A DNA stretch of 64,000 nt. Origin: Pontiella desulfatans (GTDB taxonomy: Bacteria > Verrucomicrobiota > Kiritimatiellia > Kiritimatiellales > Pontiellaceae). The position numbers and the translations under genes were made by a program. The notes beneath the pieces are model-generated. The model had not been told where the DNA came from. It saw only the letters and a program-made list of their open reading frames with translations, and did not search any database. The stretch is from positions 372,001-436,000 of the forward strand of contig NZ_CAAHFG010000001.1 of the NCBI RefSeq assembly GCF_900890425.1. The letters are read 5' to 3'. Positions 12,609-37,287 of the stretch are shown one piece after another; within the stretch, counting starts at the first letter, position 1; each line of letters begins with the position of its first letter.

Positions 12609-13205
12609 ATGGGTGAATTCGACCAAACGCGCTACACGCTGCTGCAACGCGCCTGCGATCTTCATGACGAGCAGGCGTGGGAGGAGTTTGTCGGCCACTA
12701 CCGCCGCTTCATTTTCTACATCCTGAACGAGCTGGGCGTGGCGGCGTGCGATATCGAAGACGTTGCCCAGCAGGTGCTGCTTTCGCTTACCAAGGATTTG
12801 CCGGGCTACGACCGCGCCCGTGCCCGCTTCCGCACCTGGCTCAGTACGGTCATCCGCAATGCCGCCTTTGCCCATTTCAGGAAACAAAAGAACCGCCAGG
12901 CGCGCATCAGTGTTTTTGGCGAGGAACAAAGCCTGGAGGCCATGGCGCAACCCTCGGAGATCGACCAGCGGATCGAGCAGGAATGGGCGGCCTATGTGGC
13001 AAACCTCGCCATGGAGCGGGTGAAGGGGGTTTTCCAAGGGCAGGCCATCGAGGTGTTCGAGTTGGGGTTGGATGGGTTGCCCACCGCCGATATCGCCGAA
13101 AAGACCGGCCTTAGCACGGCATCGGTCTACACCCTCCGGAAACGAGTGAAGAAGCGCCTCTATCTGGAAATCCGCGCCTTGGTCGCCGAGCTGGAGCCCT
13201 CATGA
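12609..13205 (+). CDS. ECF-type RNA polymerase sigma factor
   Basis: The product is 198 aa. Sigma region 2 lies at about residues 12-90 (AWEEFVGHYRRFIFYIL, DIEDVAQQVLLSL, FRTWLSTVIRNAAF), and region 4 at about 135-190 with a helix-turn-helix (IAEKTGLSTASVYTLRKRVKKRL). No extracytoplasmic or anti-sigma domain is attached. Its stop codon overlaps the start of the kinase gene by 4 bases (ATGA), so the two are translationally coupled. Pairing of an ECF factor with a Ser/Thr kinase is known in planctomycetes and relatives, where the kinase can control the sigma factor. That it regulates this locus is inference from position only. Confidence 0.9.
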   Translation: MGEFDQTRYTLLQRACDLHDEQAWEEFVGHYRRFIFYILNELGVAACDIEDVAQQVLLSLTKDLPGYDRARARFRTWLSTVIRNAAFAHFRKQKNRQARISVFGEEQSLEAMAQPSEIDQRIEQEWAAYVANLAMERVKGVFQGQAIEVFELGLDGLPTADIAEKTGLSTASVYTLRKRVKKRLYLEIRALVAELEPS

Positions 13206-15214
13206 CGTTTAAACCCGACCATCGGTTGATCGACGCATACGAAGAGGCAACCCTGCTCGATGAAAAGGGGCTGGAAGGACTTTGCCCATCCTACACCGAA
13301 CTGACCGAAGCCGATACGCGCTACCGCGACGGGGAGCTGCTGGGCAAGGGGGCGGTCAAGGAGGTGTACAGAACCTTCAACAACCACACCAAGCGCTGGA
13401 TCGCCATGGCGCGCCTGCGCGCCGACCGCGGCGCGGAGTTCTACGACCTGTTTGTACACGAAGCCTGGCTGACCGCCTCCCTGAGCCACCCGAACATCAT
13501 CACCGTCCACGACGCAGGGATCGATCGCGACGGCCGCCCGTTCTTCACCATGGACCTGAAGGGAAAATCCAACCTGGCCGACCGGGCGACCGGGAAGGCC
13601 GCCGCCGGGCGCCGCGAGTTGCTGGAAATCTTCATGAAGGTGTGCGATGCCGTCGCCTATGCCCATTCCCGCGGCGTCGTCCATCTCGACCTCAAGCCGG
13701 AAAACATCCAGACCGACGAATTCGGCGAGGTGCTCGTTTGCGACTGGGGCCTGGCCAAGATGGTGGGCGAAACCGAGGAGGGGGAGGACGAGATGCCTGC
13801 CGCGCTGCGGCCGATCGACAACATGACGCTGATGGGGCAGATCAAAGGAAGCCTTGGCTACATGTCGCCGGAGCAGGTGGTGCCCGGTTCCGTGAAAGAC
13901 CACCGCAGCGACATTTTCGCTTTGGGGTGCATCCTTCACCTGATCCTGACGGGGAAGCCGCCCTTTCTCGGGACGCAGGAGGAAATCCTCAAGGCCACGC
14001 GGGGCGCGGAAATGGTTCCGCCCCGCAACCGCTATCCCGACCGTCATATTCCAGCCGCGCTCGAGGCGGTGGTGCTCAAGGCCACCGCTCTTGCCCCCGA
14101 CGGCCGCTATGCTTCGGTGCCGGCGTTGCGGCACGAAATCTCCAACTTCCTTGAGGGCTATTCCACGCTCGCGGAGCAACCCGGATTCTTCCGCGAAGCC
14201 CGCCTGTTTATCACCCGCAACCGGCTGCCCGCCGCCATTGTGCTGTTTTCCATCGTCGCGCTTTCGGTGGTGAGCGTACTGTTTATCCAACATCTGGAAC
14301 GGCAGCAGCGGGTTACCGCCATCGAACGGGAGCGGGCGGAACTGTTTGAAACCGAGGCCGAAGTGGCCACAACGCTTTATCACGATGAACTCGAACGCTC
14401 CGAACAGGAGCGGATCGACCTAGCCAGAAAATTGGCAACGTCGGCCAGCGATCTCAAGAAGCTTGGCATATTTGTCCGGCCGTTCGAAACCGTCCGCGAG
14501 GCCCGTAAACTGGTTGACTCGGCCTATGCGTTGAACAGCGACAGCGCCAATGTTCAGCTGCAACGCTTTTCGCTGGACTGTATCTGCTTGAATTTCAGGG
14601 ATGCGCTGGCTGATCCGGTGCAGCCTCAAAGCGATTTGGCCGATTATCTGCTTTTTGCAAAGGCCTTCCCTGATTTTGATTTCACCGAGGACCATCGCCC
14701 ATCTACCGGGCAACTCCACGGATTTCTTGAACGGGCACGGGAAATCAACCCGAACCGCAAGGCCCTGATGGAGCGGATGGTTGCATATGACTATGCCGCC
14801 CGGAGCGTTGTTGAAAATTATGCTCCGGTGGTCGAAGCCTTGCTTGAATATGTGAATCAACGGAAGAGTGCCGCTGAACTCGATCATCATCCTGAGGGCT
14901 CTTCATTGGTTTTGAGATCCGGCCAAAACATACGGCTCGCCATTTGGGACAAGTGGGGGTCCAACGAATGCCTGCTGCGCTTTCTGCCCTTCCGCACCTT
15001 CAAGGCCGTGGTGGACGGCCGGTTTTATCCCGGCGATCTTCAGGGCCTTCAGGTTGAGACCCTCGATCTGAGCGAATGTAAAACGCTGGTGTTTAATCAT
15101 CCGGTCGATTTGCCCCTGTTGCGGAAAGTCGTGATCCGCCCCGGACAGATTGAAGCGCAGACCCTGCGCGATTCCATCCATGCAAACGGCCGCTTCGAGA
15201 TTGTTGAGCCGTAG
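13202..15214 (+). CDS. Membrane-bound serine/threonine protein kinase-like protein
   Basis: The product is 670 aa. The kinase domain spans about residues 41-320, with glycine-loop-like LLGKGAVKEVY, catalytic loop HLDLKPEN (Asp163, Asn168), DWG in place of DFG (181-183), APE-like MSPEQ and HRSDIFALGC. HLD and DWG are common in this bacterial kinase group. The usual beta3 VAIK lysine is not evident: the segment reads WIAMARL (about 66-72). A single transmembrane helix lies at about 342-364, a charged coiled-coil-like stretch at 365-415, and a C-terminal domain of unknown fold follows. The stop codon TAG lies inside a REP element. It is probably coupled to the upstream sigma factor. Activity is uncertain because of the missing lysine. 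Confidence 0.88.
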   Translation: MTFKPDHRLIDAYEEATLLDEKGLEGLCPSYTELTEADTRYRDGELLGKGAVKEVYRTFNNHTKRWIAMARLRADRGAEFYDLFVHEAWLTASLSHPNIITVHDAGIDRDGRPFFTMDLKGKSNLADRATGKAAAGRRELLEIFMKVCDAVAYAHSRGVVHLDLKPENIQTDEFGEVLVCDWGLAKMVGETEEGEDEMPAALRPIDNMTLMGQIKGSLGYMSPEQVVPGSVKDHRSDIFALGCILHLILTGKPPFLGTQEEILKATRGAEMVPPRNRYPDRHIPAALEAVVLKATALAPDGRYASVPALRHEISNFLEGYSTLAEQPGFFREARLFITRNRLPAAIVLFSIVALSVVSVLFIQHLERQQRVTAIERERAELFETEAEVATTLYHDELERSEQERIDLARKLATSASDLKKLGIFVRPFETVREARKLVDSAYALNSDSANVQLQRFSLDCICLNFRDALADPVQPQSDLADYLLFAKAFPDFDFTEDHRPSTGQLHGFLERAREINPNRKALMERMVAYDYAARSVVENYAPVVEALLEYVNQRKSAAELDHHPEGSSLVLRSGQNIRLAIWDKWGSNECLLRFLPFRTFKAVVDGRFYPGDLQGLQVETLDLSECKTLVFNHPVDLPLLRKVVIRPGQIEAQTLRDSIHANGRFEIVEP

Positions 15215-16196: not shown

Positions 16197-17702
16197 ATGG
16201 AATTCAACCGGGAAAATTTTGATAAGCTGCTTGCGCAAAACACCGATCAGCAGGTTGAAATACGCCTTCTGCATGAGAAGGTCCGTTATCTGATGAATAA
16301 GATATTCGGGCGCAGCAGTGAAAAACTGACCCCGGACCAGATGGAACTGGCGTTTGAAGAGCTTCGCGAGATGCAGGATGCTCTCGACGAAGCCGAAGAA
16401 AAACTCGAAGAGCTCGACGAAAAAAAGGAATCCCGGCGCGGTAAGCGCAAACCGCTTAAAGAGCGTATCCCTGAAGATCTCCCGACCGAGCGCGTCGTTA
16501 TCGTTCCGGATGAAGTGCAGGCGGATCCGCAGAGCTATAAAAAGATTGGCGAGGAAACCGTTGAGGAACTCGACGTTACGCCGACTCAATACTTCCGCCG
16601 CATCATCGTCCGCGAAAAATATATCAAAGTAGATGACCGCAACGTCGCACCGCTCATTGCTCCTGCCCCGAAGCGGCTGATCCCGAACAGCTATGCTTCC
16701 GCCGGACTGATCCGGAGCATCATTCTGAACAAATACTGTGACCATCTTCCGCTTTACCGGCAGGAGATGACGCTGAAATACCGCCACGATATTGAAATCA
16801 GCCGCAAAACCATGGGCAACTGGATGTATCTGGTCGCCGATTGGCTGACTCTGATTTATGAAGCGCTCCGCAATGAAATCCGGCAAAGCGGATACATGCA
16901 GATCGATGAAACATTCATAAAATACCAGGACACGGAAAAGGACCATTGTCCCAATGGATACCTATGGGCCTATCACAGTCCCGGGGCCGGCGTGCTGTTT
17001 GAATGGTTCCCGAGCCGGGCCGCCGAATGCCTGGATCCGATGCTCACCGATTATGAAGGATATATTCAGACCGATGGGTATGCCGCCTATCCGGCGTGGC
17101 TGAACCGTCCGGAACATCAAAAAGAAAAAGAGACCATCATTCACGCCGCCTGCTGGGCGCATACCCGTCGGAACTTCGTGGAAGTGCCTGACAACTCGAA
17201 CGCCCGGAAAGTCGTAAAGCTGATCGCCAAACTCTACCGCACTGAAACAGAACTTCGAAACAATCCTGAACTTGAACGCGCGGCCTACCGCCGGAAACAT
17301 GCGGCTCCGGTTCTGGATAAAATTAAAACGATCCTCGATAAAGAACAGGCGCGCCAGTTGCCAAAGAGCAACTTTGGAAAAGCCATAACCTATGCGCTTG
17401 ATCGCTGGGAAGCGCTTAATCTTTACCTCGAACACGGAACATTCGAAATCGACAACAACCTGGTCGAGAACGCCATTCGTCCGACCGCGCTGGGCAAAAA
17501 GAACTTCCTGTTCTTCGGCAGCCCGAACTCCGGGCAGACCAGTGCCGTCATCTACAGCCTGGTGGAAACCTGCCGTAAACTCGGCCTTAACCCCGCCGAG
17601 TATCTCAAAGACCTACTCGACGCCCTGCCGACCATGCAACAGTCCGAAGCTGCGAACTGGACACCTGCCCGCTGGTCCACCGCTCGCACTCAAACGGCAT
17701 AG
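16197..17702 (+). CDS. tnpC: IS66 family DDE transposase TnpC
   Basis: The product is 501 aa. The N-terminus has a coiled coil (about residues 20-80) and an acidic/basic linker. The DDE core is visible as QIDETF (Asp237), IQTDGYAAY (Asp293) and DNNLVENAIRP (Glu424), ending with the conserved AANWTP region just before the right end of the element. The zinc-knuckle cysteines found in many IS66 transposases before the DDE domain are absent; the corresponding stretch is VQADPQSYKKIGEE. The protein is apparently intact. Confidence 0.93.
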   Translation: MEFNRENFDKLLAQNTDQQVEIRLLHEKVRYLMNKIFGRSSEKLTPDQMELAFEELREMQDALDEAEEKLEELDEKKESRRGKRKPLKERIPEDLPTERVVIVPDEVQADPQSYKKIGEETVEELDVTPTQYFRRIIVREKYIKVDDRNVAPLIAPAPKRLIPNSYASAGLIRSIILNKYCDHLPLYRQEMTLKYRHDIEISRKTMGNWMYLVADWLTLIYEALRNEIRQSGYMQIDETFIKYQDTEKDHCPNGYLWAYHSPGAGVLFEWFPSRAAECLDPMLTDYEGYIQTDGYAAYPAWLNRPEHQKEKETIIHAACWAHTRRNFVEVPDNSNARKVVKLIAKLYRTETELRNNPELERAAYRRKHAAPVLDKIKTILDKEQARQLPKSNFGKAITYALDRWEALNLYLEHGTFEIDNNLVENAIRPTALGKKNFLFFGSPNSGQTSAVIYSLVETCRKLGLNPAEYLKDLLDALPTMQQSEAANWTPARWSTARTQTA

Positions 17703-17736
17703 CCGTTGTCAATGAGGTGATCGAAAAGACGCATAC

Positions 17737-17744
17737 CCAACTCT
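17737..17744. repeat. Right target-site duplication of IS66 (CCAACTCT)
   Basis: Identical to 15398-15405 and directly adjoining the right IS end (...GACGCATAC). Confidence 0.9.
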
Positions 17745-18319
17745 TCCCGGTTGCGGATAATATGGTCGTGGCTTTCGCTCTGCCACAGGTGTCCGCCTTC
17801 GTGCAGGCCGAGTTTGGTCAGCCTGGTTGAAGAAAAGCGCTTGATAGACTGGAGGCTTGTTTCGAGCGGATGGCCATGCATGGGCTGCACAATCCAATGC
17901 ACATGGTTAGGCATGATTACGAAGTCGCCCGCCCAATACCGCTCGCCGTCGAAATGCAGCATGCTTTTCCGCAGTACTGCACGGCAATCCGGTTCTTGAA
18001 AAAGGCAGCGGCCATGGCATTGGTCGAGTTCCGTGAAGAGGTGCCGAGTTTGGTCGCGCTCAAAATTACGACGTCGCTTCCTGTCGATTTTGGCATAGGC
18101 TTCGGCTCGCTCCCGTTTGTCCATCGAGTCGAGTACACCATTCGCCGCGAGCCATGCTTTCCGCTCATGGTTCCATTGGTTGAGTATCGGGCGTGGAATT
18201 GAATCGGCCAAGCGGAAGGTTGCAAAGTAGGTGGCGCCTTCCTGCCGCCAATGGGGCAGGTTCCGGTGGTAGACCTTCACCGTGGCATGCTTGTTGAATG
18301 CCTTTAAACTTGGTTCCAT
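17745..18319 (-). pseudogene. RAYT (REP-associated tyrosine transposase), N-terminal piece
   Basis: The - strand frame starts at ATG 18319 (MEPSLKAFNKHATVKVYHRN) and runs to ...HDHIIRNREEL at the IS66 junction, about 194 aa. It then reads a few residues into the IS and stops at 17690. The Y1 transposase domain is recognised by ATYFATFRLADS, the HUH pair in VIMPNHVHWIVQP, and GGHLWQSESHDHIIR. REP elements lie on both sides of the ancestral gene (15211-15300 and 18367-18849), the usual layout of a RAYT with its REPs. The insertion makes this copy non-functional, because the candidate catalytic Tyr is on the other fragment. Confidence 0.9.
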
Positions 18320-18366
18320 GGGAAAAGAGTAGCCAAGGGGCTGGGGCGAGGCAAGCGCGGGACGAC

Positions 18367-18849
18367 GCGGATCGGATATCCGCGCCACGCCGTCCGCCAC
18401 GCCGTAGCTCGCTTATCCGATGCGAGTTCCCGCACGCAGGGTACGCGGATCGGATATCCGCGCCACGCCGTCCGCCGTGCCGTAGCTCGCATATCCGATG
18501 CGAGTTCCCGCTCGCAGGGTACGCGGATCGGATATCCGCGCCACGCCGTCCGCCGTGCCGTAGCTCGCATATCCGATGCGAGTTCCCGCACGCAGGGTAT
18601 GCGGATCGGATATCCGCGCCACGCCGTCCGCCGTGCCGTAGCTCGCATATCCGATGCGAGTTCCCGCACGCAGGGTATGCGGATCGGATATCCGCGCCAC
18701 GCCGTCCGCCACGCCGTAGCTCGCATATCCGATGCGAGTTCCCGCACGCAGGGTACGCGGATCGGATATCCGCGCCACGCCGTCCGCCACGCCGTAGCTC
18801 GCATATCCGATTCGAGTTCCCGTTGCACAGAAAAACGCGGATCGGATAT
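18367..18849. repeat. Array of REP/BIME units, class A, with 78-bp period
   Basis: Six TAGCTCGC landmarks begin at 18405, 18483, 18561, 18639, 18717 and 18795, exactly 78 bases apart. Each unit has hairpin A (CTCGCAT/ATGCGAG, loop ATCCG), a linker (ttcccgcacgcagggta), hairpin B (GCGGAT/ATCCGC, loop CGGAT) and a GC-rich spacer (cgccacgccgtccgcc). The loops of A and B are reverse complements, as is the 9-mer ATATCCGAT/ATCGGATAT, so each unit can fold in two ways. The last unit degenerates (TTCGAG; aaaaacgcgg). Open frames across it encode only repeat peptides. Confidence 0.92.
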
Positions 18850-19052
18850 GAACCGAGACTTCGTCTCTTTTTCCTTCGGCAAATATCGGTCGCTTCGCTA
18901 GCGGCGCGCCACGCGGAAAAAAAATCAACATCAACTGTCCCAATCCCAACTTGGGATGTTCATAAGTACACATGTACGTGTATTTGTGGGAATTTTAGCC
19001 CATTCGATGGGTGTACATGAAATTCGGAAAATAAACTGAAAAGGTAAATGAG
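18850..19052 (+). promoter_or_regulatory. Leader region upstream of the PEP-CTERM gene, with palindromes
   Basis: No gene is seen. It contains TCCCAACTTGGGA (18944-18956, perfect palindrome) inside a 35-base stretch starting TGTCCCAAT (18936). A same-length, partly matching stretch lies at 32754-32788 upstream of another FDG-module gene. TACAC ATGTAC GTGTA follows (about 18966-18981). These are candidate operator or activator sites. The translation start at 19053 is preceded by AAGG at a normal distance. Confidence 0.4.
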
Positions 19053-19784
19053 ATGAAAAAAATAACATGTAAATGGGTCGCAGGACTTGCGCTTATGGTT
19101 GGCGTGTCCGGAGCGTCAGCGGCTATTATATTTGACTTTGTTGACGACACCGATCCCAACAGCGCGGATCCTCTTGATGGAGGAGGTGTGGGCGCCATGA
19201 TGACGGAAACCGACGGCTCCGATACCGTGACGCTCACCACCATCGATATTCTCTTTCCTGAGTATGAAGATCCCGGCACCGGATGGGTAGCTACGGGGAA
19301 CACCTTGAGCGCAAAGGACGGCGATGGAGGAAGCTCCAATATTGCCGGTACTGCTGACGCGCTGGGCCTCAATAATCCCAGCATCGGGAACACCGACTTC
19401 CTCACCATCGGAGGCGGTTCAGAGTCGGGTGATTTCAACACCGGAGAGGCCTGGATCTTTTCGTTCGATGAAGACGTTACCTTCGCTAACATTGAGTTTG
19501 AATCCGCAGTTTCCGGCAATCTCTTCAGCGTTCTGGTTGGAGGAAGCAACATCGTGACCCTCGATGCCCCGGATGGCAATGTCTCCGGCACAGGCCTTGG
19601 TGGACTCAACGGGCTCACCATTTCCTCAGGCACTGAGATCACATTCCTGGCTGGTGGTCCCGTGCTCGACACGGACTACCGGATCGAGTCCTTGACCGTC
19701 AACGTGGTTCCGGAACCGGCTACGTTGGGTTTGCTCAGCGCATGTGCAGTCGGGGCATTCATCATTCGCCGTTTCCGCGTCTAA
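19053..19784 (+). CDS. PEP-CTERM-anchored protein consisting of one FDG module
   Basis: The product is 243 aa. A signal peptide (MKKITCKWVAGLAL... ASAA) is followed by one copy of the FDG module (about 26-215; FDFVDDTD, TTIDILFP, NTGEAWIFSFDEDV, SGTEITFLAG, IESLTVNV). It ends with a PEP-CTERM sorting signal: VPEPATLGLL, a hydrophobic segment, then RRFRV. PEP-CTERM proteins are recognised by an exosortase and processed at the cytoplasmic membrane. No exosortase gene is in the window. Because the protein is only module plus anchor, while later genes carry the same module on enzymes, a structural or docking role is an attractive inference. No enzymatic motif was seen. Confidence 0.88.
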   Translation: MKKITCKWVAGLALMVGVSGASAAIIFDFVDDTDPNSADPLDGGGVGAMMTETDGSDTVTLTTIDILFPEYEDPGTGWVATGNTLSAKDGDGGSSNIAGTADALGLNNPSIGNTDFLTIGGGSESGDFNTGEAWIFSFDEDVTFANIEFESAVSGNLFSVLVGGSNIVTLDAPDGNVSGTGLGGLNGLTISSGTEITFLAGGPVLDTDYRIESLTVNVVPEPATLGLLSACAVGAFIIRRFRV

Positions 19785-19807
19785 GGGACCGAAATTTAAA
19801 TCTGTGT

Positions 19808-19837
19808 GGGTCTCCGGTTTCGGAGGCCCATTTATTT
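19808..19837 (+). terminator. Rho-independent terminator-like hairpin
   Basis: GGGTCTCCG gttt CGGAGGCCC (one G-T pair) is followed by ATTTATTT. It lies between the PEP-CTERM gene (ends 19784) and the next start codon at 19856. It would terminate or attenuate transcription after the anchor-protein gene. Confidence 0.65.
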
Positions 19838-19855: not shown

Positions 19856-22063
19856 ATGTTTGATCGTACACGTCCAATCGCCCTTTGTTTTGCGGCTGCG
19901 TTAGCCCTTTGCGCAGAAGTATCGGCCAATGCGGTGTTTTCCTTTACCGATGGAACTGCATTTGATGGCAGCACCGGCATCGGCGTTTCCATGACGCAGA
20001 CGGATGCCGTCTCCTCCGTGATCGTGAACATGACGACCGTGGATATTATTGACTGGGAAGGCGACCTGGCCTCGGAAGGCGGGCCGGATGTCCCGACACT
20101 GAATATTGGCGGAAGCGGTGGATTGGCTGTGAACAGCACGCCGAATACGAACTGGAGTAATGAAGCGACAAGCATTAATCCGGGTGAAGGCTGGGTGTTT
20201 AAGTTTGATGTCGATGTTAATCTGGTTGAGCTGGATTTTGCCAGCCAGGGCACTGACGTTGTTGTCGTTCTTTCCAGTCCGGCATTTGCTGACAAAACGC
20301 TGGATTATGCCCATGGCGATGCAAACAACACCCATAGCCTGGACGACGCCTTTGTGGAGGCAGGAACAGAGATAACCCTCCAGTTTACTTCATATATCGC
20401 GGATGACGTTCTGCGGCTTTCGAGTTTCACGATAGAGGCGTTGGCAACCACCAATACAACCGGTACGGCCATTTTCAACTTTGTCGATGGCGGCGAGTTC
20501 GACAATCCGGCGGCGATCGGCTCCAGCATGACCCGCAGCGATATCACCATCACCACGATTGATCTGATCGGTCAGGATGGATCGCTGAATTCCACGGGTG
20601 CTGCGCATCGGCTGAACATTTACGGCAGTTATAATGCGCTGGGTTTGAATGATGCTATTGATCTGCTGGGGATCGGCACCACTGAATTGCGCGATTTTAA
20701 TCCCGGTGAGGGCTGGGTGATGAGTTTTGACCGGAATGTCCATCTGGTTGAACTGGATATGTTCGGCCAGGACGCGGGGGCTGAAATGACCGTTTCGTCA
20801 TCGGCCTTTTCCGACTTCGTGCTGGCAGACGGCGTTAATGCAGAGGACATCCACTCTCTGGCAAATACGTTTGTTGCGGCGGGAACAGAAATTACCTTCC
20901 GGATGACGAGCGCCACAAACGCCGCCGACACAGGTCTTAGTATCAGTTCGCTTACCGTGGTGCTGGCAACGAACCAGCCTGCTGCAACGGAGACGATCCA
21001 TGGAACTCCCTACGTTTGGCTGGATCAGTTTTTCCAGGGATTGGAAACAGAAGCCGATTATCTTAATGCTGATGAAAGCGACAGCGACGGAGATTCGATG
21101 CTGACGTGGAAGGAATACCTTGCCGGAACCATTCCGACGAATTCCGCCTCTTTGCTGGAAGTCAACGCCACGGAGCTCGCCGATACCAACTGCATTGTTT
21201 CCTGGCAGTCTGTAACCGGAAAGTATTACAGCGTGATGGTTGAAACCAACCTGGTTGCTTTTTCCAATGGTTGGAAAACGGTCGCGAATAATATCCAGGG
21301 ATTGGAAACCGAAACGGCGTACACCACAACCGTTGCTTCCGCGAGTGCCGCCTTTTATAAGGTCGGCATCGAGAAGCGCGCCATCTATCTGCTGATCGGG
21401 CAGTCGAACATGGCCGGGCGTGCTCCGATCGAAACACAGGACGAAGCGCCGGTCGTGGGATGCGAGCTGTTCAACAGTTCCAATGGCTGGGAGACGGCGA
21501 CCAATCCGCTCAACCGCTATTCCACCATCCGGAAAGATATCAGCCTGCAAAACCTGGGGCCTGGCTATGGTTTTGCGCAGCGCATGCGCGAAGTGCAGCC
21601 CGAAATCCATCTGGGACTGGTGGTGAACGCGCGCGGCGGGACGAGTATTTCCGAGTGGGAAAAAGGCACGACCTATTATAATGAGGCGATCAGCCGCGTG
21701 CAGTCGGCGCTGAAGGATGGGAACAGCCGCCTGGCGGGCATCCTCTGGCATCAGGGCGAAGGCAACAGCAGCCAGACCACCTCCTATCTGAATTCGCTCG
21801 CCCAACTGGTCGCGGATTTCCGCGCCGACCTCGGTGATCCGGATCTGCCCTTTGTTGCCGGGCAGCTGGAGCAGGATGATGTCACCCCCGAAGTAAAAGA
21901 ACGCCCGGTCAATGACTACATCATCCTGCTGCCGACCGTCAGTTCAAACACGGCAGTCGCAACGACCGAAGGCTTGCTCACGATGGACGGCACCCATTTC
22001 GATTCGGCCGGCCAGCGCGAACTGGGCCGTCGCTATGCCGAGGCCCTGCTTAGTCTGGAGTAG
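19856..22063 (+). CDS. Secreted SGNH/SASA-type carbohydrate esterase with two FDG modules
   Basis: The product is 735 aa. ATG 19856 follows GGAGAGAG and starts a signal peptide (MFDRTRPIALCFAAALAL... SANA). Two FDG modules occupy about residues 26-195 and 199-375 (FSFTDG, FNFVDG; NPGEGWVF, NPGEGWVM). An EF-hand-like segment (DSDGDSMLTWKEYLAG, about 400-425) and a short STNL-type module follow. The catalytic domain is about 507-735: GQSNMAG (nucleophile Ser block), ARGGTSISEW, WHQGEGN and DGTHFD, which is the sialate O-acetylesterase-like (SASA) pattern. It probably removes acetyl groups from polysaccharide. The stop codon TAG is part of a REP element. Confidence 0.88.
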   Translation: MFDRTRPIALCFAAALALCAEVSANAVFSFTDGTAFDGSTGIGVSMTQTDAVSSVIVNMTTVDIIDWEGDLASEGGPDVPTLNIGGSGGLAVNSTPNTNWSNEATSINPGEGWVFKFDVDVNLVELDFASQGTDVVVVLSSPAFADKTLDYAHGDANNTHSLDDAFVEAGTEITLQFTSYIADDVLRLSSFTIEALATTNTTGTAIFNFVDGGEFDNPAAIGSSMTRSDITITTIDLIGQDGSLNSTGAAHRLNIYGSYNALGLNDAIDLLGIGTTELRDFNPGEGWVMSFDRNVHLVELDMFGQDAGAEMTVSSSAFSDFVLADGVNAEDIHSLANTFVAAGTEITFRMTSATNAADTGLSISSLTVVLATNQPAATETIHGTPYVWLDQFFQGLETEADYLNADESDSDGDSMLTWKEYLAGTIPTNSASLLEVNATELADTNCIVSWQSVTGKYYSVMVETNLVAFSNGWKTVANNIQGLETETAYTTTVASASAAFYKVGIEKRAIYLLIGQSNMAGRAPIETQDEAPVVGCELFNSSNGWETATNPLNRYSTIRKDISLQNLGPGYGFAQRMREVQPEIHLGLVVNARGGTSISEWEKGTTYYNEAISRVQSALKDGNSRLAGILWHQGEGNSSQTTSYLNSLAQLVADFRADLGDPDLPFVAGQLEQDDVTPEVKERPVNDYIILLPTVSSNTAVATTEGLLTMDGTHFDSAGQRELGRRYAEALLSLE

Positions 22064-22153: not shown

Positions 22154-23836
22154 ATGAACTATAAGATACTGTTGTTTGGATTATTTGTGGTCATCGGGGC
22201 GGGAACCGCATTTGCCGCTGATGCAAATTTGGCGGATGCCATTAAAGAAGCCAATGCGGCGGATGATGTCGGCAAGGTGGGCGAGCTGGGCAACAAGCCC
22301 GAACGGTTGGAATGGCTGCGGGATAACGGATTCGGCATGTTCCTGCATTGGGGCGTGGATGCGCAGCTGGGGTCGGTGATCAGCCATTCGATGGTGGGGG
22401 CCGATGAGGCCTATCTGGATCGATATTTCAACGAACTCCCGCAAACCTTCTATCCGAAAAAGTGGGATGCGGAGGAATATGTGCTGCTGGCGAAGACCGC
22501 TGGGATGAAATATGTGGCGCTGACCACCAAGCACCATTCCGGCTTCTGCCTGTGGGATACCCGGACGACCGGTTTCAATGTGATGAACACGCCGTATGGA
22601 AAGGACATCGTCCGCGAGTTTGTCGATGCCTGCCGGAAGTTTGATATGGCGGTCGGGCTGTACTATTCCCCGGAGGATTTTTCCTACAGCCACAAACGCG
22701 GAAAAACCATCCGGCGGCTCGGGCACCAGCCGAGTCCGGACAGCGACCCGGAGTATGTCGCGTATATCAAAGCGCAGGTGACGGAGCTCATGACCCAGTA
22801 TGGCGACGTGAATGTGTTCTTTATCGACGGCAAGGGTAAGCCGGCCACGAAGGAAGTCGTCTGGACGCTGCAACCGGATTGCATGATTACCCGCGGGGCC
22901 ATCCAGAGTCCGGAACAGACCGTACCCGGCCTGCCGCCGAAAGAGGTGTGGGAAACCTGCATGACGCTCGGAACGCAGTGGCAGTATATGCCGCAGCAGC
23001 TCGATCATCTGAAGGATGGTAACCGTGTGGTGGAAATCCTGGTCGAAACGCGCGCCAAGGGCGGGGCGCTGCTGCTGAACCTGGGGCCGCGCCCCGATGG
23101 AAGCATTACCGAGCTGCAGGAAGACATCATGCGGGAAGTGGCGCTCTGGAATTTTGTCAACCGCGAGTCGGTGCTGGGGGTTCGCCCATGGATTGTGACG
23201 AACGAGGGCAACACCTGGTTTACCAAAGCCAAGGATGAGGACACCGTTTATATCTTCCTGACCAAACAGCAGGACTGGAGCCGGAAGTCGCGCCGCGATT
23301 TCGTGGTCGGATCGGTGGAGGCAACGGACAAGACGGAAATCAGCGTGGTGGGTTATACCGGTAAACTTGTTGAGTACAGCAAAATGAAGACGGAAGAAGT
23401 GGCTCCGCGATTTGAGCAGAAGCAGGATGGGCTGCACCTCTCGATCATGCCGGGTCAGCGCCTGCTGAACCACACCGACTGGCGGAACCCCATTGTCGTG
23501 AAGCTGACGAATGTGAAGGCTTCCTGCAAACCGCCGCTGGTGATGAACGGCAAAGCCAAAGGCAAAGACGGGCAGGTGTCCTTCAACGGCGAGCTGAAGG
23601 ATCTGGGTGATGCGAAGGAGGTGCTCGTCGGCTTTGAATATCAGGAATATCTCGGTTTTGCCGAAAACATGTACAACGACGAATGGTTCTCAACCGAGCT
23701 GACTGAGATGACGGAACCGGGCGAGTTTGCCAAAACCATCGAAGTGCCGAACGATAAAACCTACCAGTGGCGCGCCGTGGTCAAACACCCCCGCGTAAAA
23801 ATGACCGGAGATCACAGTAAAGTATCCGTGAAATGA
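22154..23836 (+). CDS. Secreted GH29 alpha-L-fucosidase
   Basis: The product is 560 aa. ATG 22154 follows AAAGGAGAAGG and starts a signal peptide (MNYKILLFGL... AFAA). GH29 features are RLEWLRDNGFGMFLHWGV (53-70), KYVALTTKHHSGFCLWD (119-135), GLYYSPEDF and VFFIDGKG, with Asp225 at the usual nucleophile position. FID replaces the more common WFD. MGxTW-like and LLNLGPRPDG motifs mark the end of the barrel. A beta-sandwich tail follows. It hydrolyses terminal alpha-L-fucose from glycans. Its stop overlaps the start of the following sulfatase gene (ATGATGA), indicating coupling. It is the only gene between 19.0 and 37.3 kb without an FDG module. Confidence 0.92.
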   Translation: MNYKILLFGLFVVIGAGTAFAADANLADAIKEANAADDVGKVGELGNKPERLEWLRDNGFGMFLHWGVDAQLGSVISHSMVGADEAYLDRYFNELPQTFYPKKWDAEEYVLLAKTAGMKYVALTTKHHSGFCLWDTRTTGFNVMNTPYGKDIVREFVDACRKFDMAVGLYYSPEDFSYSHKRGKTIRRLGHQPSPDSDPEYVAYIKAQVTELMTQYGDVNVFFIDGKGKPATKEVVWTLQPDCMITRGAIQSPEQTVPGLPPKEVWETCMTLGTQWQYMPQQLDHLKDGNRVVEILVETRAKGGALLLNLGPRPDGSITELQEDIMREVALWNFVNRESVLGVRPWIVTNEGNTWFTKAKDEDTVYIFLTKQQDWSRKSRRDFVVGSVEATDKTEISVVGYTGKLVEYSKMKTEEVAPRFEQKQDGLHLSIMPGQRLLNHTDWRNPIVVKLTNVKASCKPPLVMNGKAKGKDGQVSFNGELKDLGDAKEVLVGFEYQEYLGFAENMYNDEWFSTELTEMTEPGEFAKTIEVPNDKTYQWRAVVKHPRVKMTGDHSKVSVK

Positions 23837-26526
23837 TGAGACGCTTAAACCTAGTGGCTGTGTTTCTGGTGTCCGCAATGGTGTGTTTCGGGCAGCAGCC
23901 GAACGTCCTGTTTATTGCGGTGGACGATCTGAATGATTGGACGGGCTTTGCGGGCGACCCGAATGCGATCACGCCCAACATGGATCAGCTGGCCGGCGAG
24001 GGGGTTCATTTTTCGCGTGCGTATTGTGCGTATCCGTTGTGCGGGCCTTCGCGGGCAAGCCTCATGAGCGGCGTTTATTTTTCGGAACTCAACGCGAGTG
24101 CAACGCAGCCAGAGGATGAAGAGGTTGAAGAAAAAATCGAAGCGTTGGGCTCGTCCCTGCTGCACACGTATTTGGGCAATCATGGCTATAAAACCATGGC
24201 GGTGGGAAAAATCCTTCACAGCCATGTTCCGGATTTCAGTGTGGATCTGTCGGGAGGAAGAGAAGGGTGGGATTTTAACGAGGATGCTGCCGGGAACCGG
24301 ATCCGCAGTAATTGGCCGCCTGATCTGAATCCGGATACGGCCAGCACCTTGACCGACTGGGGCATCTATGTCGGCGACAACGGCACGGGCACTGAGGCCG
24401 ATATGAGCGACTCAATAGCAGCCGCATGGGCGGTGGATCGCTTGCAGGAAACGCACTCGGAACCCTTTATGCTGATGGTCGGCTTCCTGCATCCCCATGT
24501 ACCGTGGTATGTGCCTCAAAGCTATTACGATATGTACGATCATGAAAACCTGATCATGCCTCCGTATAATCCGGATGACTGGGATGACATTCCGTCTGCC
24601 GGGCTTGATAACATCAACGATGGATATCCCCGAACCGAATGGGCGATCGCTAATAATCAATGGACGAATATGGTGCATGCCTATCTGGCCAACATTACCT
24701 ATGCCGACGCCAAGATCGGGCTGGTGCTGGATGCGTTGGAGGCGAGTCCATACAGCACGAACACCATTGTGGTGCTGTGGAGCGATCACGGCTACCACAT
24801 GGGTGAAAAGAACACCTTCCAGAAACATACCCTTTGGGATCGGTCGGGGGTGGCGCCGCTGATCATCAAGGCGCCCGGCATGGCCACCAATTCGACGTGC
24901 AACCGGGTGGTGAGCCTGCTCGATATTTACCCGACGCTGCTGGATCTATGCGGTTTGCCTGCTAATGAGTTGAACCGGGGCCAAACCTTAAGACCCCTGT
25001 TGGAAAACCCTGCGCTCCCGTGGGATGTTCCCGCATTTAACTATAAGCACGGCATCGAAGCCGTACAGGTTGGCGATCTGCGGCATATAGAATATGAAGA
25101 TGGTTCACAGGAACTGTATGACCATTCAAACGACCCCGATGAATGGACGAATCTGGTGAATGATGTGAATTATGCGGAGATTATCATTGCGCTTAAAAAC
25201 ATGTCCCCCTTTCAGGAAGAGCCTCCGAGTTCGGCGAAGGTATTTGAATTTGTCGATGGATCTGCGCTGGACGCGGCGGGAATCGGAGGCGGTATGACCG
25301 TTGGGGATGTAACCATCACGACGCTGGATGTTATCGGGCAGGATGGCACCCGGGCCTCCGGCGGGGTGGGCCATGGTACCAATGTCGGGACTAATGACGG
25401 TTTAGGCATTAACTCCGCTGATTCCGACAAGGCCAATAACTTTGATTCGGGTGAAGGATGGGAATTTTCATTCGATACCGATGTCTATCTGCAGAGCATT
25501 GATCTGTTGGAAACGGTTGCTGGCGGCACGCTGGCCATTTCGTCATCCAGCTTTACGGATATCGTCATTAGCGGCGCCCAGGATGGAGCATCTGGTTTGG
25601 GGAATGTGTTCGTGCCCTCCAATGCCCTGATCGGCATCACCTTCAGCCACACCAATGGGCCGGGTATGGACGGGCCGAAAATCATGAGTCTTACTGTGAT
25701 GCCCCCTCCGGCGGCTTCTTCCGAGCTGTTTGCCGATGGCTTTGAGGGGGGCTTTACCCCGATCTGGGCCAGCACGGCCTACCTTTCATCAACGTCGTAT
25801 GAAGGAGCAAAAGCCGCAAAAATGAACAATGCCGACTATGTTGAAACGGGCGTAGACACGACCGGTTATTCCGGCATTCGGATCTCGTATGCCCGGAAGA
25901 CCGACGGCCTGTCGGCCGGAAGCTCCTTTACCAGCGAGTGGTACGATGGAACCGGTTGGAACACCATCGAGAACCTTTCAAGCGGATTTACCCCGTGGCA
26001 AGTGGTTTCGCAGATTGGTTTGCCGGCCGGCGCCGACCATAATCCAAACTTCAGGATTCGCTTCCGGGTCAATGCCGGATCCGACTACGGTTATGTTGAC
26101 TCGGTGGTGGTTGAAGGGGCTCCGGATACGCTAGGTTATGGCGATTGGGCTGTGGAGCAGGGACTCGGGGTGAATGATGCGTATGACGATGATCCCGATG
26201 GGGACGGCATGGTCAATCTGGTTGAATATGCCATCGGTGCAAATTCACTGAGCAACGATGCAGCATTCTATCGACCCCATGCCACGTCTTCAAAGCAGAA
26301 TGGAACCAACTATCTAAACCTCGTGTATCGGCGGCGTATGGATGCCCCATACCGGGGGCTGGACTATCAGGTCGGTTCGGCCACCAATCTGCTGGAGGAA
26401 CGGACGAATGCTACGCAGGAGGCGGGGGCGGTCGCGCTGGGCGATGGATTTGAACTCGTTACGAACCGGATTCCGACGGATGTAGAGGTGCAGCAGTTCA
26501 TGGAGCTCAGAATTTCGGCAGACTAG
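23833..26526 (+). CDS. Secreted S1-family sulfatase with FDG and C-terminal modules
   Basis: The product is 897 aa. A signal peptide (MMRRLNLVAVFLVSAMVCFG) precedes a sulfatase domain at about 22-460. Metal ligands are in AVDDLNDW; the formylglycine motif is CGPSRAS with Cys70; later motifs include VLWSDHGYHMGEKNTF. The start resembles the iduronate-2-sulfatase-like group (DDLNDW). Residues about 469-622 are an FDG module (FEFVDGSAL, TITTLDVIGQDG, DSGEGWEFSFDTDVYL). Residues about 632-760 are a jelly-roll-like beta domain. Residues about 765-897 are a C-terminal module with DDDPDGDGMVNLVEYAIGAN and terminal FMELRISAD. This is unusually long for a sulfatase (normally 450-600 aa). It needs formylglycine maturation by an enzyme not encoded here. 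Confidence 0.92.
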   Translation: MMRRLNLVAVFLVSAMVCFGQQPNVLFIAVDDLNDWTGFAGDPNAITPNMDQLAGEGVHFSRAYCAYPLCGPSRASLMSGVYFSELNASATQPEDEEVEEKIEALGSSLLHTYLGNHGYKTMAVGKILHSHVPDFSVDLSGGREGWDFNEDAAGNRIRSNWPPDLNPDTASTLTDWGIYVGDNGTGTEADMSDSIAAAWAVDRLQETHSEPFMLMVGFLHPHVPWYVPQSYYDMYDHENLIMPPYNPDDWDDIPSAGLDNINDGYPRTEWAIANNQWTNMVHAYLANITYADAKIGLVLDALEASPYSTNTIVVLWSDHGYHMGEKNTFQKHTLWDRSGVAPLIIKAPGMATNSTCNRVVSLLDIYPTLLDLCGLPANELNRGQTLRPLLENPALPWDVPAFNYKHGIEAVQVGDLRHIEYEDGSQELYDHSNDPDEWTNLVNDVNYAEIIIALKNMSPFQEEPPSSAKVFEFVDGSALDAAGIGGGMTVGDVTITTLDVIGQDGTRASGGVGHGTNVGTNDGLGINSADSDKANNFDSGEGWEFSFDTDVYLQSIDLLETVAGGTLAISSSSFTDIVISGAQDGASGLGNVFVPSNALIGITFSHTNGPGMDGPKIMSLTVMPPPAASSELFADGFEGGFTPIWASTAYLSSTSYEGAKAAKMNNADYVETGVDTTGYSGIRISYARKTDGLSAGSSFTSEWYDGTGWNTIENLSSGFTPWQVVSQIGLPAGADHNPNFRIRFRVNAGSDYGYVDSVVVEGAPDTLGYGDWAVEQGLGVNDAYDDDPDGDGMVNLVEYAIGANSLSNDAAFYRPHATSSKQNGTNYLNLVYRRRMDAPYRGLDYQVGSATNLLEERTNATQEAGAVALGDGFELVTNRIPTDVEVQQFMELRISAD

Positions 26527-26551: not shown

Positions 26552-29260
26552 ATGTCAAAAATTATTAAACCGCCTTGTGTCATTCTATTCTGCTTGCTGG
26601 CCTGCAGTTCGCTTCGGGCGGCGCCCCTGATGGTCAGTCCCGATGGGCCGATTTCAACTCTGGAAGAGGCCCGGTTGCAGGTCAGGGAACTGAAGAAAAA
26701 GCAGGCCGGTCAACCGATTGAGGTTTTGATTAAGGGCGGGGTTTATCCGTTGCGGGAAACGGTAGTTTTCGGACTCGAGGATTCGGGGGCTGAAGGTGCT
26801 CCAGTCGTATACAAAGCGGCCCCTGGAGAGGAGCCGGTATTCACAGGCGGAGTTCCAATCATTGGATGGAAAAAAGTGTCGGCGTATCCAAAGGGTGTTT
26901 CCAAGGAAGCGCGTGGCAACCTGTGGGTGGCTAAGGTTCCAAAGGTTGGAAAAAAGAACTGGGTCATCCGATCTCTCTATGACGGGGATGAGCTGCTGAA
27001 GCGTGCCCGGTCGGATGGTTTTAAATATGCGGCGGAAGCGGCCGAAAAAGAAAACGACTCGAACCGGCAGGGTAAAAAACTGACGAGTGTATTGGAATAC
27101 GAGGGCGAACCCGTTGCGCCGTTTGACCGCACGGTTCATTACCGGAACGATGACATAAAGGATTGGCCAAACCCTTCCGATATCGAACTCATCCTTAAGG
27201 ATCGCCCGTGGTTGGCTAATATTATTGCTCTTGATCGCATCGAAACAAAAAAGAAGATTGCCTATCTGGCGGTGGATCCGACGTATCAGGCGATCAATCC
27301 GAACAATCGGTACTGGGTGGAGAATGCGATTGAATATTTGGATGAGCCGGGCGAATGGGTGGTGAATACCCGCGAAGGGCTCATTTACATGTGGCCGAAG
27401 AAGGATATGGCCGACATGAATGTGATGGCTCCGTATCTGCAGGAGTTCATCCGGGTTGAAGGCTCGGAAAACGGGCCGTTTGCATCGCACCTCCGTTTCG
27501 AGGGCCTGACCTTCACCCATGGTGTGCGCGATACCCTGCTTGAGGACGACAAGGGCTTGCAGCACGACTGGGAAATGTATGACAAGGCCAATGCCGTGAT
27601 TCGGTTCCGCTTTGCGGAAGACTGCGCTGTCGATTCGTGCGTCATAAAATCAAGCAGCGGCACGGGCATCCGCCTGGATCTGCATTGTCAGCGCATCAAA
27701 ATTACTCGCAACCATCTGCATCATCTCGGCGGGGGAGGCATTGTGCTCAGCGGCTATAGTCCGGGTACGAAAGATGTGAATAAAAACAATGTGGTGCACG
27801 ATAACTATATCCATCACATCGGCGAACTGCTGATGCACTCCTGCGCTATTTTTATTGCGCAAAGCGGGCATAATGAAATCAGTCACAATACCATTCATGA
27901 TGTTCCGTATAACGGCATTGTGGTGAGCGGTTGCCGTCCGCATGAGTTTTATCTGGTAAAGCGGATTCCATTCCGCCGTGCCTGGGTTTCGTCAATCCGT
28001 TTCGAGGAATGCGAACCCTACATCAAGAAGGGGCTCGAAGCGAAATCTCAGAACCGCCTTGAACATTTTCTGCCGCTGCTGCACGCCCGCGAAAACCGGA
28101 TCGTGATGAATGATATTTCGCGCACGCTGCTGAAGCTGCATGACGGCAATGCGATCTATTTTTCCGCCATGGGCGAGGATAATGTGGTTGAGCGCAACTA
28201 TCTTCACGAGAATCATGATACAGCAGGGGCTATACGTTTGGATGATAACCCGAGCTTTACCATTATTCGGGAAAACGTGATCACAACATCGGAGCGGGGC
28301 CTGGGCCTCAAGGGGCCGGCGGATGTGATCAATAACTTTATTTTCACGGAAACGTTCCTGCGCGGGCGCAGTACTCCGGGCTGGCTGGGCGGCACCAAAC
28401 AAGCCCTGCCAAAGGGGAATATCTTTATGCCGCCGGCGTCGTCCAAATCGAGTAACGGCCTCTATCTGACCGACGACCGCGCTACGGATAAGCCGTTCTA
28501 TGAGAATCTCCCGCTAATGGAAAACTCGATTTATTTCACAGAAAACGAGAGCAAACCGTATGTACCCAAAACAGCACTCGGCAATGATCTGTTCACGGGA
28601 AAACCGGTAACGCCCGGCAGGGATCCGGTGAAGTTGCTGTATGCCGATCCCCTATTTGATGAAGAGGCGATGAAGGAAGGCCTCTATCGTTTCAAAAAAG
28701 GCTCGCCGGCGGAAGCGCTGGGAATCAAGCCGATCGACCTGCGCGAGGTGGGTTCCTCTCTGTCAAATCCCCGGACTGCCGGAGGCAATCAGGTGGTTTT
28801 TGAATTCACCGATGGTTCCGCGCTGGATGGAAAAGCGGGCATCGTTGGGGCGAGCATGACGGTCAAAGGAATCACCCTGACAACCCGCGGGATCATCGGC
28901 AGCGATGGGACCGAAGAGGGCAATACGACCACCATTTTTAAGCATTTTGATTCGCTCAGTATCAATACGGGATCGGTGAGCGGAAATGAATATCAGAATA
29001 TGGATCCCGGCGAAGCATGGGTGTTTGATTTTGATACGGATGTGATGCTGAGCCGGATTCATTTTGACGGCCTGGGAAGCGGCGAAACCATGGAAGTAAG
29101 TATTCTTGATGGCAGTAATGGCGGAGCGGGAACCACGATGACGGTTACCGATGCGGGTAACCTGGTTCTCGAAAAAAAGGTTTCCGCCGGAACGGACATC
29201 CGGATTGAGCAAATTGCAGGCAAAGCGCGAATCGAGTCGATTTCGGTTGTCAGCGAATAA
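26552..29260 (+). CDS. Secreted parallel beta-helix glycosidase-like protein (GH141-like) with C-terminal FDG module
   Basis: The product is 902 aa. A signal peptide (MSKIIKPPCVILFCLLACSSLRAA) is followed by a region with ISTLEEARLQVRELKK and VLIKGGVYPLRETVVFG, typical of large bacterial right-handed beta-helix glycosidases such as GH141 (fucosidase/xylanase). The helix proper runs over about residues 300-640, with repeated NNVVHDNYIHHIGE and NEISHNTIHDVPYNGIV turns. Residues 749-902 are an FDG module (FEFTDGSALDG, DPGEAWVFDFDTDV, IESISVVSE) that forms the very C-terminus. Family assignment is by overall pattern, and catalytic residues are not identified. Position next to GH29 and sulfatase genes fits fucan breakdown. 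Confidence 0.8.
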   Translation: MSKIIKPPCVILFCLLACSSLRAAPLMVSPDGPISTLEEARLQVRELKKKQAGQPIEVLIKGGVYPLRETVVFGLEDSGAEGAPVVYKAAPGEEPVFTGGVPIIGWKKVSAYPKGVSKEARGNLWVAKVPKVGKKNWVIRSLYDGDELLKRARSDGFKYAAEAAEKENDSNRQGKKLTSVLEYEGEPVAPFDRTVHYRNDDIKDWPNPSDIELILKDRPWLANIIALDRIETKKKIAYLAVDPTYQAINPNNRYWVENAIEYLDEPGEWVVNTREGLIYMWPKKDMADMNVMAPYLQEFIRVEGSENGPFASHLRFEGLTFTHGVRDTLLEDDKGLQHDWEMYDKANAVIRFRFAEDCAVDSCVIKSSSGTGIRLDLHCQRIKITRNHLHHLGGGGIVLSGYSPGTKDVNKNNVVHDNYIHHIGELLMHSCAIFIAQSGHNEISHNTIHDVPYNGIVVSGCRPHEFYLVKRIPFRRAWVSSIRFEECEPYIKKGLEAKSQNRLEHFLPLLHARENRIVMNDISRTLLKLHDGNAIYFSAMGEDNVVERNYLHENHDTAGAIRLDDNPSFTIIRENVITTSERGLGLKGPADVINNFIFTETFLRGRSTPGWLGGTKQALPKGNIFMPPASSKSSNGLYLTDDRATDKPFYENLPLMENSIYFTENESKPYVPKTALGNDLFTGKPVTPGRDPVKLLYADPLFDEEAMKEGLYRFKKGSPAEALGIKPIDLREVGSSLSNPRTAGGNQVVFEFTDGSALDGKAGIVGASMTVKGITLTTRGIIGSDGTEEGNTTTIFKHFDSLSINTGSVSGNEYQNMDPGEAWVFDFDTDVMLSRIHFDGLGSGETMEVSILDGSNGGAGTTMTVTDAGNLVLEKKVSAGTDIRIEQIAGKARIESISVVSE

Positions 29261-29279: not shown

Positions 29280-32200
29280 ATGATGAGACGTTTTCAGCAT
29301 ATGATGTTGGCGGCAAGCGTAAGCCTGTCGTGCTTTGCAACGGACTACTATGTGAGCACTCAGACTGAATTTGATGCTGTTGCAAATGCGGTGCTGCAAC
29401 CCGGCGATGCCATTTTGCTGGAGCGCGGGCAACAGTTTATCGGTATGCTGTCGCCGACCGGAAGAGGAACGGAAGGTGCCCCGATTCGAATTCGTGCATA
29501 TGGAGAGGGAGATCGCCCGCTGATTGATGCCCAGGGGTTGAATGAGGCCGGTGTGCTTCTGGAGGGAGACATTGCCTTCTGGGAAGTATCGGGGTTGGAA
29601 ATCATCAATAACGATGGAACGGATAATGATGATAACTATTTTTTTGGCGTTCTCGTTGTCGTAAGCGGTCCCGATGATACCGTCTATGAGCATATTTATA
29701 TCGATGATGTTTTTATTCATCATGTGAATGGCGGGGTGGAAGGTAAAGACCGGGGTGGAATACATGTGTATATGGAGGGTTTGGATAATTCTATCGTCGA
29801 TGACCTTCGCATAACGAATAATCGGATCGAAGATATAGGCGGGGTCGGGATCGCCACCAAGTCAAGCTGTGGGAATGTGACGGTGCATGAAGCTGGTGGG
29901 TATACGGCAGAATACCTGTGGACCGGAGTGTATATCGGTGGAAACTATGTGAATCGAACCGGGCGAAACAGTATCATTATTCGCGCCAGTCAGGATCCGA
30001 TGGTTGAGTATAACGTTGTCGCGTACCCCGGTCGCCATAGTCAGGGGAATAGTATTTTCTGTTTCGATACCGTTGGTTGTATAATGCAGTACAACGAAGC
30101 CTATGGAAACACAGTCGAAGGTTCCACGCACGTCAGCTATGCCGATCGCGGTGGGTTTGATGCAGATTACACCTGCGTGGATACCTATATTCAATATAAC
30201 TACAGCCATGGCAATGAATATTTCTGTGCCATTATGAAGAAAATTCAACGCAATGTGACCATTCGATACAATGTGACTCAGGACGAGAAGCGGGGCTTCT
30301 ATTTCTATGGCTTTGACAGCAGTTCGGCAGTTGAAAATGTGCATATCTACGGCAATACGCATTATGTGAGCGCCGGGAACAGTGCCGTTGTGTTTGTAGA
30401 GGGTCGAAAACCGCATGATACCCTGCTTGAAAATAATATCTTCTACTTTGAGGATGCGGCTGATGCCTCATACGGAACGGGTAATCAGAGTGGCGCTACG
30501 TTTAACAACAATATCTACTACAATATTACGCCGCATTCGTCGGACACGAACCCAATGGTTGGAGACCCGCTGTTCACAAAGCCCGGCATTGCCGGAACAG
30601 ATATTGACCTGACGACGATGGGAGGGTTGCGCGGCTATCAATTACTAACCGGCTCGCCGGCAATTGATGCGGCGACTGTGATTCCGGGGGCTTTGGCGTC
30701 GGATATTGTAGGGTATCCGATAAATGACGGCGCTCGCGATATCGGTGCCTTTGAGTATCAGGGGCCGGTCTCCAGAGTCACGTTTGATTTTCTTGGAGAT
30801 TCGGTCTGGGACGGCGGTGCCGGTGGAGGCGGGATCGGCTCGAACGTGACGTTGACAAACTCTTTGACAGACGAGCATGTAAAACTAACGACTATCGATA
30901 TTATTGGGCAGGATGGCAGCCTGGCTTCTGAGGGCGGAGGGCATACGTTGAATGTGTTTGGTTCTGTCGATTATCTGGGCGTCAACGATGAAAGCGGAAA
31001 CCCCGGCGGCTACGACTCGGAAACCCGTTTTTTTAATCCGAACGAAGGCTGGGTCTTCTCCTTTGATGTGGATGTCTATCTCGAAAATATACAGCTCGGC
31101 AGCCAGACGTCTGATGCGGAGCTGACCCTGTCGTCGGATGTATTTGACGATATTGTTCTTGCGGACGGGAAACCGAATGATGTTCACGATCTGGAATATC
31201 GCTTTATTCCGGCTGGAACCGAACTAACCTTGATGATGACCACGCCGACCAATGGTGTCGATACCGGTCTTGGAGTGACGAGCATCACCGTTTCTGCCGT
31301 TCCTTTCCTCGCGGAGGGAACAACCGTGGTGCAGGCGGAGTTATACGACGATGCCATGGGTGTGGTGACCCAGCCGAGCTCCGATGACGGTGGTGGTGAG
31401 GTGGTGGCTTTTGATGCGACGGGCGATGAAATCTCCTACGAGGTGAATGTGCCGGCAGCTGGAACCTATTTAGTCGGCTTCCGTGTGGCCTCCGACACAG
31501 GGTTGCTGAATCTGGAGTTGGCTCAGAATGGAACACCGCTCACCACGCTTAATCGGCTGGTTGACGCAGGTGAAACCTGGACCACCGTGTATAAGATGAT
31601 CACGCTTTCTGCAGGTAATAGTACCCTCACGGTTTCTGCAACCGATGGAGAGGCGCAACTATTAAACTGGTTTGAATTAACCGCTTCAGATGGCTACTTT
31701 GAGTCGTCCGTTCCGACGGATTCAATCAATATCGCGCTGAATCAGGCGGCGAGTGCGAGCAGTGTGCATAGCTCCTCCTACACAGCGGTTAAATCGTTCG
31801 ATGGAGATCTCAATACCCGTTGGGCATCTACGGAGTTAACGCCTTGGCTCGAGGTGGATTTCGGCTCGATCGTTTCGGTCAATGGCGTTCGCATCATTGA
31901 AACGAGGGATCGCATTCGCTCGTATGAAATTCAGGTGTATACCGACAGTTGGGAAACCGTTTTTGTGGGGGCCAATCCCAGTGATGATCCGATCGAGTGG
32001 TTTACAGCCGTGACCGGATCCAGATTCCGGTTGCAGATTATGTCGGCGACAGCCAATCCGACGATCGAGGAAGTTGAGTTCTACGGACTTTCTGACCTGT
32101 CGCCTTCCATGGCAATGAATGCCGATTCGATTTCATTCGAGTGGCCCAATACGCCGGGCGCGATCTATGCCGTGCAACGTTCAACCAACCTGGTGGCGGA

Positions 32201-34976: not shown

Positions 34977-35003
34977 GCAACGCCGGATAGTTTCATGACG
35001 GAA

Positions 35004-35033: not shown

Positions 35034-35057
35034 TACCGCATGAGGCTCAGGAAAAAT

Positions 35058-37274: not shown

Positions 37275-37287
37275 CGCAGGACGAGGA

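Follow-up and report, generated by a model that had tools for sequence, protein, structure and literature searches.

The window analysed here, a stretch of 64,000 nucleotides (56.15% G+C) from Pontiella desulfatans, contains a locus in which secreted enzymes share an accessory module, FDG, with a small protein that consists of the same module and a surface anchor. What does such a module do at the cell surface without an enzyme attached to it? The first-pass annotation suggested that it docks the enzymes through contacts between modules, in a cellulosome-like arrangement using a single domain type. We favour a different reading, to which we assign a probability of about one half: the protein may be a surface-displayed, single-module glycan-binding protein, the modules on the enzymes may be CBM-like targeting domains, and expression of the two may be coupled through a promoter specific to the locus.

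A single FDG module with a PEP-CTERM tail

The gene and its parts are as follows.
19053-19784, + strand: module-only PEP-CTERM gene, 243 amino acids (translation and domain profiles)
19053-19121, + strand: signal peptide, residues 1-23 (inspection of the translation)
19122-19709, + strand: FDG module, residues 24-219, of the anchored-type clade; net charge -29, two Lys/Arg residues
19707-19781, + strand: PEP-CTERM tail (profile match and tail comparison)

The signal peptide, recognised by eye, is MKKITCKWVAGLALMVGVSGASA. The C-terminal tail, VPEPATLGLLSACAVGAFIIRRFRV, carries the hallmarks of PEP-CTERM proteins, namely the PEP motif, a hydrophobic stretch and a basic cluster. The protein scores 19.6 bits against the NCBIfam model TIGR02595 (PEP_CTERM), above the cut-off of 16, and 20.3 bits against Pfam PF07589, slightly below the cut-off of 20.7. 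A domain profile scan found no enzymatic domain in the product, and the earlier description of the gene as signal peptide, one module and PEP-CTERM anchor is borne out. The module (~170-200 residues) abuts the PEP motif with no linker between them. The genome (8.66 Mb) has 26 PEP-CTERM matches and encodes an exosortase (PF09721, E = 2e-50, at C1:4372379). The signal peptide, the tripartite tail and the genomic exosortase are the same as in known PEP-CTERM/exosortase proteins (TIGR02595), and the product would be an exosortase-dependent surface protein. Single-gene operons are common among PEP-CTERM genes (PMC1569441), a habit seen here too; the difference lies in the ectodomain, which in this case is an undescribed module that also occurs on secreted enzymes. 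A literature search on PEP-CTERM in Kiritimatiell- organisms returned no relevant paper.

No Pfam or NCBIfam model covers the FDG module, and none of 34 FDG modules matched a Pfam CBM family. There are eight copies in seven genes of the genome, all in this locus, with E values of 1e-45 to 1e-65 against an eight-row profile built from these same copies; the same search of 8.66 Mb found a single distant relative elsewhere (E = 2e-9). Near-invariant positions are few (F, L, E, W, F) and appear structural. All modules in the window are strongly acidic, with net charges of -13 to -29. The loop motif GQDG/H/N, found in the enzyme modules, is mostly missing from the anchored module, which may for this reason have no ligand in common with them.

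The locus and its expression signals

The surroundings of the module-only gene comprise the following features (the source of an assignment is given in brackets).
12609-13205, + strand: ECF sigma factor, candidate user of the promoter-like motif
13202-15214, + strand: Ser/Thr protein kinase, paired with the sigma factor gene
18936-18964, + strand: promoter-like motif TGTCCYAAT-N15-TCATA, copy 1, 5' of the module-only gene
19806-19831, + strand: terminator- or attenuator-like hairpin 3' of the module-only gene (11 pairs, T-rich tail)
19856-22063, + strand: SASA-type esterase with two N-terminal FDG modules, 19931-20440 and 20468-20965 (domain and FDG profiles)
22154-23836, + strand: alpha-L-fucosidase-like (GH29-like) protein without FDG (domain profiles)
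23833-26526, + strand: sulfatase SULF1 with FDG (25237-25704) and a generic C-terminal domain (26131-26523) (domain and FDG profiles)
26552-29260, + strand: GH141-like beta-helix enzyme with C-terminal FDG, 28790-29254 (domain and FDG profiles)
29280-32312, + strand: beta-helix protein with FDG (30777-31298), CBM6 and F5/8C (domain and FDG profiles)
32754-32782, + strand: promoter-like motif, copy 2, 5' of the operon that starts with BIG (the second FDG operon)
32799-34976, + strand: BIG, with an N-terminal domain, two Big_9, FDG (34047-34553) and the generic C-terminal domain (34569-34973)
34995-37274, + strand: secreted protein with N-terminal FDG, 35130-35612 (domain and FDG profiles)
37183-38712: second sulfatase, without FDG
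38724-40289: second beta-helix protein, without FDG
40372-42744: GH3 protein, without FDG

The esterase probably starts at 19856, an open reading frame start at 19742 being less likely. No catalytic domain was recognised in BIG, and the middle region of the 34995-37274 product has no Pfam match and no sequence match in the PDB. The substrate of the locus would be a sulfated, probably fucose-rich polysaccharide. Strain F1 has 521 sulfatase genes (PMC6388578); in a profile search of the present genome, one sulfatase carries an FDG module.

The secreted proteins that follow the module-only gene had been described as bearing the module and lacking an anchor. Six genes do encode it, but the GH29-like fucosidase, the second sulfatase, the second beta-helix protein and the GH3 protein do not. 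The enzymes indeed have no PEP-CTERM or transmembrane tails; SULF1 and BIG, however, share a C-terminal domain for which the genome has at least 109 matches. This domain may serve generally in sorting or retention, and the idea that the module is the enzymes' sole means of retention was dropped after it was found. In proteins that bear the module, the catalytic region is mostly acidic, with a net charge of -4 to -11 per 100 residues (-1.0 in the GH141 enzyme); in enzymes without the module it is near neutral (-2.9 to +0.9). This charge difference hints at an extracellular role for the module-bearing proteins and a periplasmic one for the others.

The promoter-like motif occurs twice in the 8.66 Mb genome, both times in this locus, and a reversed control pattern has no match; it is also present at comparable positions in three relatives (G016, G008 and G001). 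Because the pattern was derived from these sites, its presence there is by construction, and the informative evidence is its absence elsewhere in the genome together with the second site, which turned up unprompted 5' of BIG. The ECF sigma factor encoded nearby probably recognises the motif, which would couple expression of the anchored protein to that of the enzymes. In G016, the module-only gene has a homologous sigma-kinase pair as its immediate 5' neighbour; here, the interval between the kinase and the PEP-CTERM gene (16197-18900) is occupied by an IS66 transposase, an IS200-like open reading frame (Y1_Tnp match below cut-off) and an array of five repeats with 78 bp spacing.

The terminator-like hairpin reported earlier after the module-only gene is confirmed (folding z of the region, -2.7). 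In G016 and G008 it is kept, with its T-rich tail, 3' of the counterpart of this gene; the anchored gene of G001 is followed by a strong hairpin of different sequence, also with a T-rich tail. The hairpin would set expression of the anchored protein apart from that of the enzymes. At the level of sequence, then, the domain layout, the confinement to one locus, the common promoter-like motif and the conserved hairpin are evident.

Distribution and ancestry of the module

The full system is found in four genomes of the genus, including this one, among 146 relatives. In all four, the gene for the module-bearing esterase has a module-only gene as its immediate 5' neighbour, at a position that we call the slot, and the earlier assignment of the anchored gene to the FDG enzymes is thereby upheld, as it is by the locus-only motif. 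Both facts also fit docking, in which the anchored module would bind the enzymes' modules, homotypically or heterotypically, as a monovalent surface anchor. A similar pair of anchored module and module protein exists in an unrelated verrucomicrobium (L110), and genomes that encode a large module protein mostly have an anchored module-only gene as well. The co-occurrence that docking calls for nevertheless fails in both directions: in the planctomycete CA13 the only module detected is that of a GH141-FDG enzyme, and Adhaeretor mobilis has an anchored module and no FDG enzymes. These absences hold at the thresholds used, and several of the genomes are MAGs. The PEP tail of the slot gene is intact in this genome and in G016, the G008 gene is divided over two contig ends and was joined by inference, and in G001 the anchor is truncated, a loss that would be hard on docking.

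Matches to FDG were found in 13 of 388 Verrucomicrobiota genomes; in a sample of 392 Planctomycetota, only the centre genome matched. SASA esterases, sulfatases and GH141 enzymes carry the module in this second phylum too. A Mariniblastus MAG has proteins with the module and a dockerin-like domain, a PEP-CTERM form and a GH141-FDG enzyme; its esterase and its sulfatase each combine the module with a dockerin-like domain, the dockerin matches straddling the Pfam cut-off of 22.9 bits (18.1-24.9 bits). Enzymes that already have dockerins speak against docking through FDG. In certain verrucomicrobia, PEP-CTERM modules are paired with autotransporter-repeat proteins. Since several anchors carry the module (PEP-CTERM, dockerin-like), it looks like displayed cargo. 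The modules of the relatives resemble XDP1 (NF041927) weakly, scoring 23-25 bits, far under the cut-off of 125. In another genus, a sulfatase (L052:1462-3345) carries a distantly related FDG-like module, which forms a long branch of the tree.

In a tree of 74 FDG modules, a clade with 99/94 support unites the anchored module of the window with other modules that carry an anchor, from an Akkermansiaceae MAG, a Phycisphaera MAG and Mariniblastus. The enzyme modules cluster by host protein across species, and the GH141 modules do so across phyla, as expected if each module serves its own enzyme. The slot genes of G001 and G008 cluster with the first modules of the esterases. The tree rules out an origin of the anchored module as a recent copy of one of its neighbours' enzyme modules. 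Simple orthology of the slot genes is also ruled out, the tails being conserved and the modules not: the tail of the 19053-19784 product is identical at 20/24 and 18/24 positions to slot tails in two relatives and at 6-13/24 to the remaining 25 detected in the genome. The slot thus retains its tail while the ectodomain is swapped. Relic FDG modules lie beside the esterase gene at the end of L066 (G008:C237) and at L065:10104-10430, suggesting recombination at the slot.

The non-orthologous slot modules and the nearby relic in G008 would suit a generic ectodomain or spacer, exported without a specific ligand and spread by recombination. We consider this very unlikely: the confinement to the locus, the recurrence on one set of enzyme classes in different phyla, the locus-specific motif and the hairpin kept among relatives are suggestive of selection for a function at this locus. 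For docking, the tree is mostly unfavourable: the slot modules are not orthologous, the enzyme modules diverge independently, and few positions are conserved overall. An anchored clade without the enzyme-type loop motif would fit a heterotypic pair, in which a promoter-proximal anchored subfamily captures the enzymes through a second module subfamily and the conserved hairpin sets the anchor level; this version strikes us as distinctly unlikely.

What the module may bind

The enzyme-type FDG module is predicted to be a beta-sandwich (pLDDT 89.8), and its listed fold neighbours are largely CBM6, CBM35, CBM36, CBM29, CBM86 and esterase accessory domains (Z = 8-10). For the anchored protein (pLDDT 70.6), the best match is 9q5u (Z = 10.9 across 153 residues), an entry whose title names a putative carbohydrate-binding module and for which we found no relevant paper; an acyltransferase and the CBM6 of an agarase follow (Z = 8.6-8.9). 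Because a profile search of solved structures with FDG gave matches at chance level only, the fold reading depends on the predicted models, and the best Z values of 8-11 exceed only modestly the 7-8 that models without a clear match typically reach. The models are suggestive, not proof, of a CBM6/35/36-like sandwich, and a CBM-like fold by itself reveals no function, as this fold also mediates protein-protein contacts. FDG shares with CBM6, CBM35 and CBM36 the predicted sandwich and the attachment to carbohydrate-active enzymes; it differs in having no Pfam CBM sequence match, in being very acidic and in occurring alone with a surface anchor. Cohesin is absent among the fold matches listed, which does not exclude a cohesin fold.

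Cellulosomes hold several enzymes on a scaffoldin, and monovalent cohesin anchors such as ScaE also exist. The locus resembles these systems in combining an anchored domain with secreted enzymes that share its domain type. It differs in that no cohesin or dockerin was matched by Pfam in ten locus proteins, in using one domain type with one copy per anchor, and in that other genomes do not always have both partners. One module without a linker ahead of the PEP motif cannot hold several enzymes, and the proposed cellulosome-like scaffold is reduced to a monovalent anchor at best. Both partners would moreover be strongly negative. Docking itself, weakened by the partner-free genomes, the lost anchor in G001, the dockerin-bearing enzymes elsewhere and an anchored module that is not nearest to the enzyme modules, is in our view unlikely.

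Glycan binding appears likelier because partners are missing in both directions, module-bearing enzymes have independent anchors, the anchored module shares no close ancestry with its neighbours' modules, the charges are alike and the predicted fold is of the CBM type. It is also favoured by the presence of FDG on the same three enzyme classes across phyla, even beside a dockerin on esterase and sulfatase, by the solitary GH141-FDG enzyme of CA13, and by a second gene in G001, whose slot-like PEP tail displays an unrelated accessory domain otherwise seen at the N-terminus of BIG-type proteins. At L064:11950-12627, a PEP-CTERM gene encodes a domain like the BIG N-terminus, with a signal peptide and tail resembling those of the G016 module-only gene. 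Several points weigh against glycan binding: acidic modules are ill-suited to a polyanionic sulfated glycan, unless binding is calcium-mediated or uncharged parts are targeted; the invariant positions look structural and no ligand site is mapped; and the anchored module lacks most of the enzyme-type loop motif.

The glycan might instead be the cell's own exopolysaccharide, which would retain enzymes and displayed module without protein docking. In nine genomes of the genus (L035, L040-L044, L046, L048, L051), a distant relative with a single module has a GDP-L-fucose synthase homologue as its neighbour, and in three of these nine loci a second FDG-like gene with PEP-CTERM adjoins. Together with the GH29- and GH141-like genes of the window, these neighbours tie the fold loosely to fucose glycans. 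PEP-CTERM systems have been linked to exopolysaccharide (PMC1569441), and the title of PMC7356697 refers to sulfated exopolymers made by Pontiella. Retention by the matrix nonetheless seems rather unlikely, as the close modules are limited to one degradation locus, which suits the substrate better than a general matrix, and a sulfated matrix would repel them by charge.

We return to the target glycan as the most likely ligand. Exosortase-dependent sorting would place the module on the cell surface, where it would most likely bind the target glycan as the cell's surface glycan-binding protein, and the same fold on the secreted enzymes would serve as a CBM-like targeting domain. In Bacteroidota polysaccharide utilisation loci, surface glycan-binding proteins with a lipoprotein anchor are encoded with the degrading enzymes and SusC/SusD. 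The proposed role as a displayed glycan binder is alike; the differences are the PEP-CTERM anchor and the absence of a SusC/SusD pair, or any SusC/SusD-type match, among 19 locus proteins scanned. The FDG family, missing from Pfam and NCBIfam, occurs in Verrucomicrobiota and Planctomycetota and rides on esterases, sulfatases and GH141 enzymes, or stands alone with several surface anchors. With its own promoter motif and one anchored module, the locus makes enzyme-substrate-cell cohesion in sulfatase-rich bacteria testable with few purified proteins.
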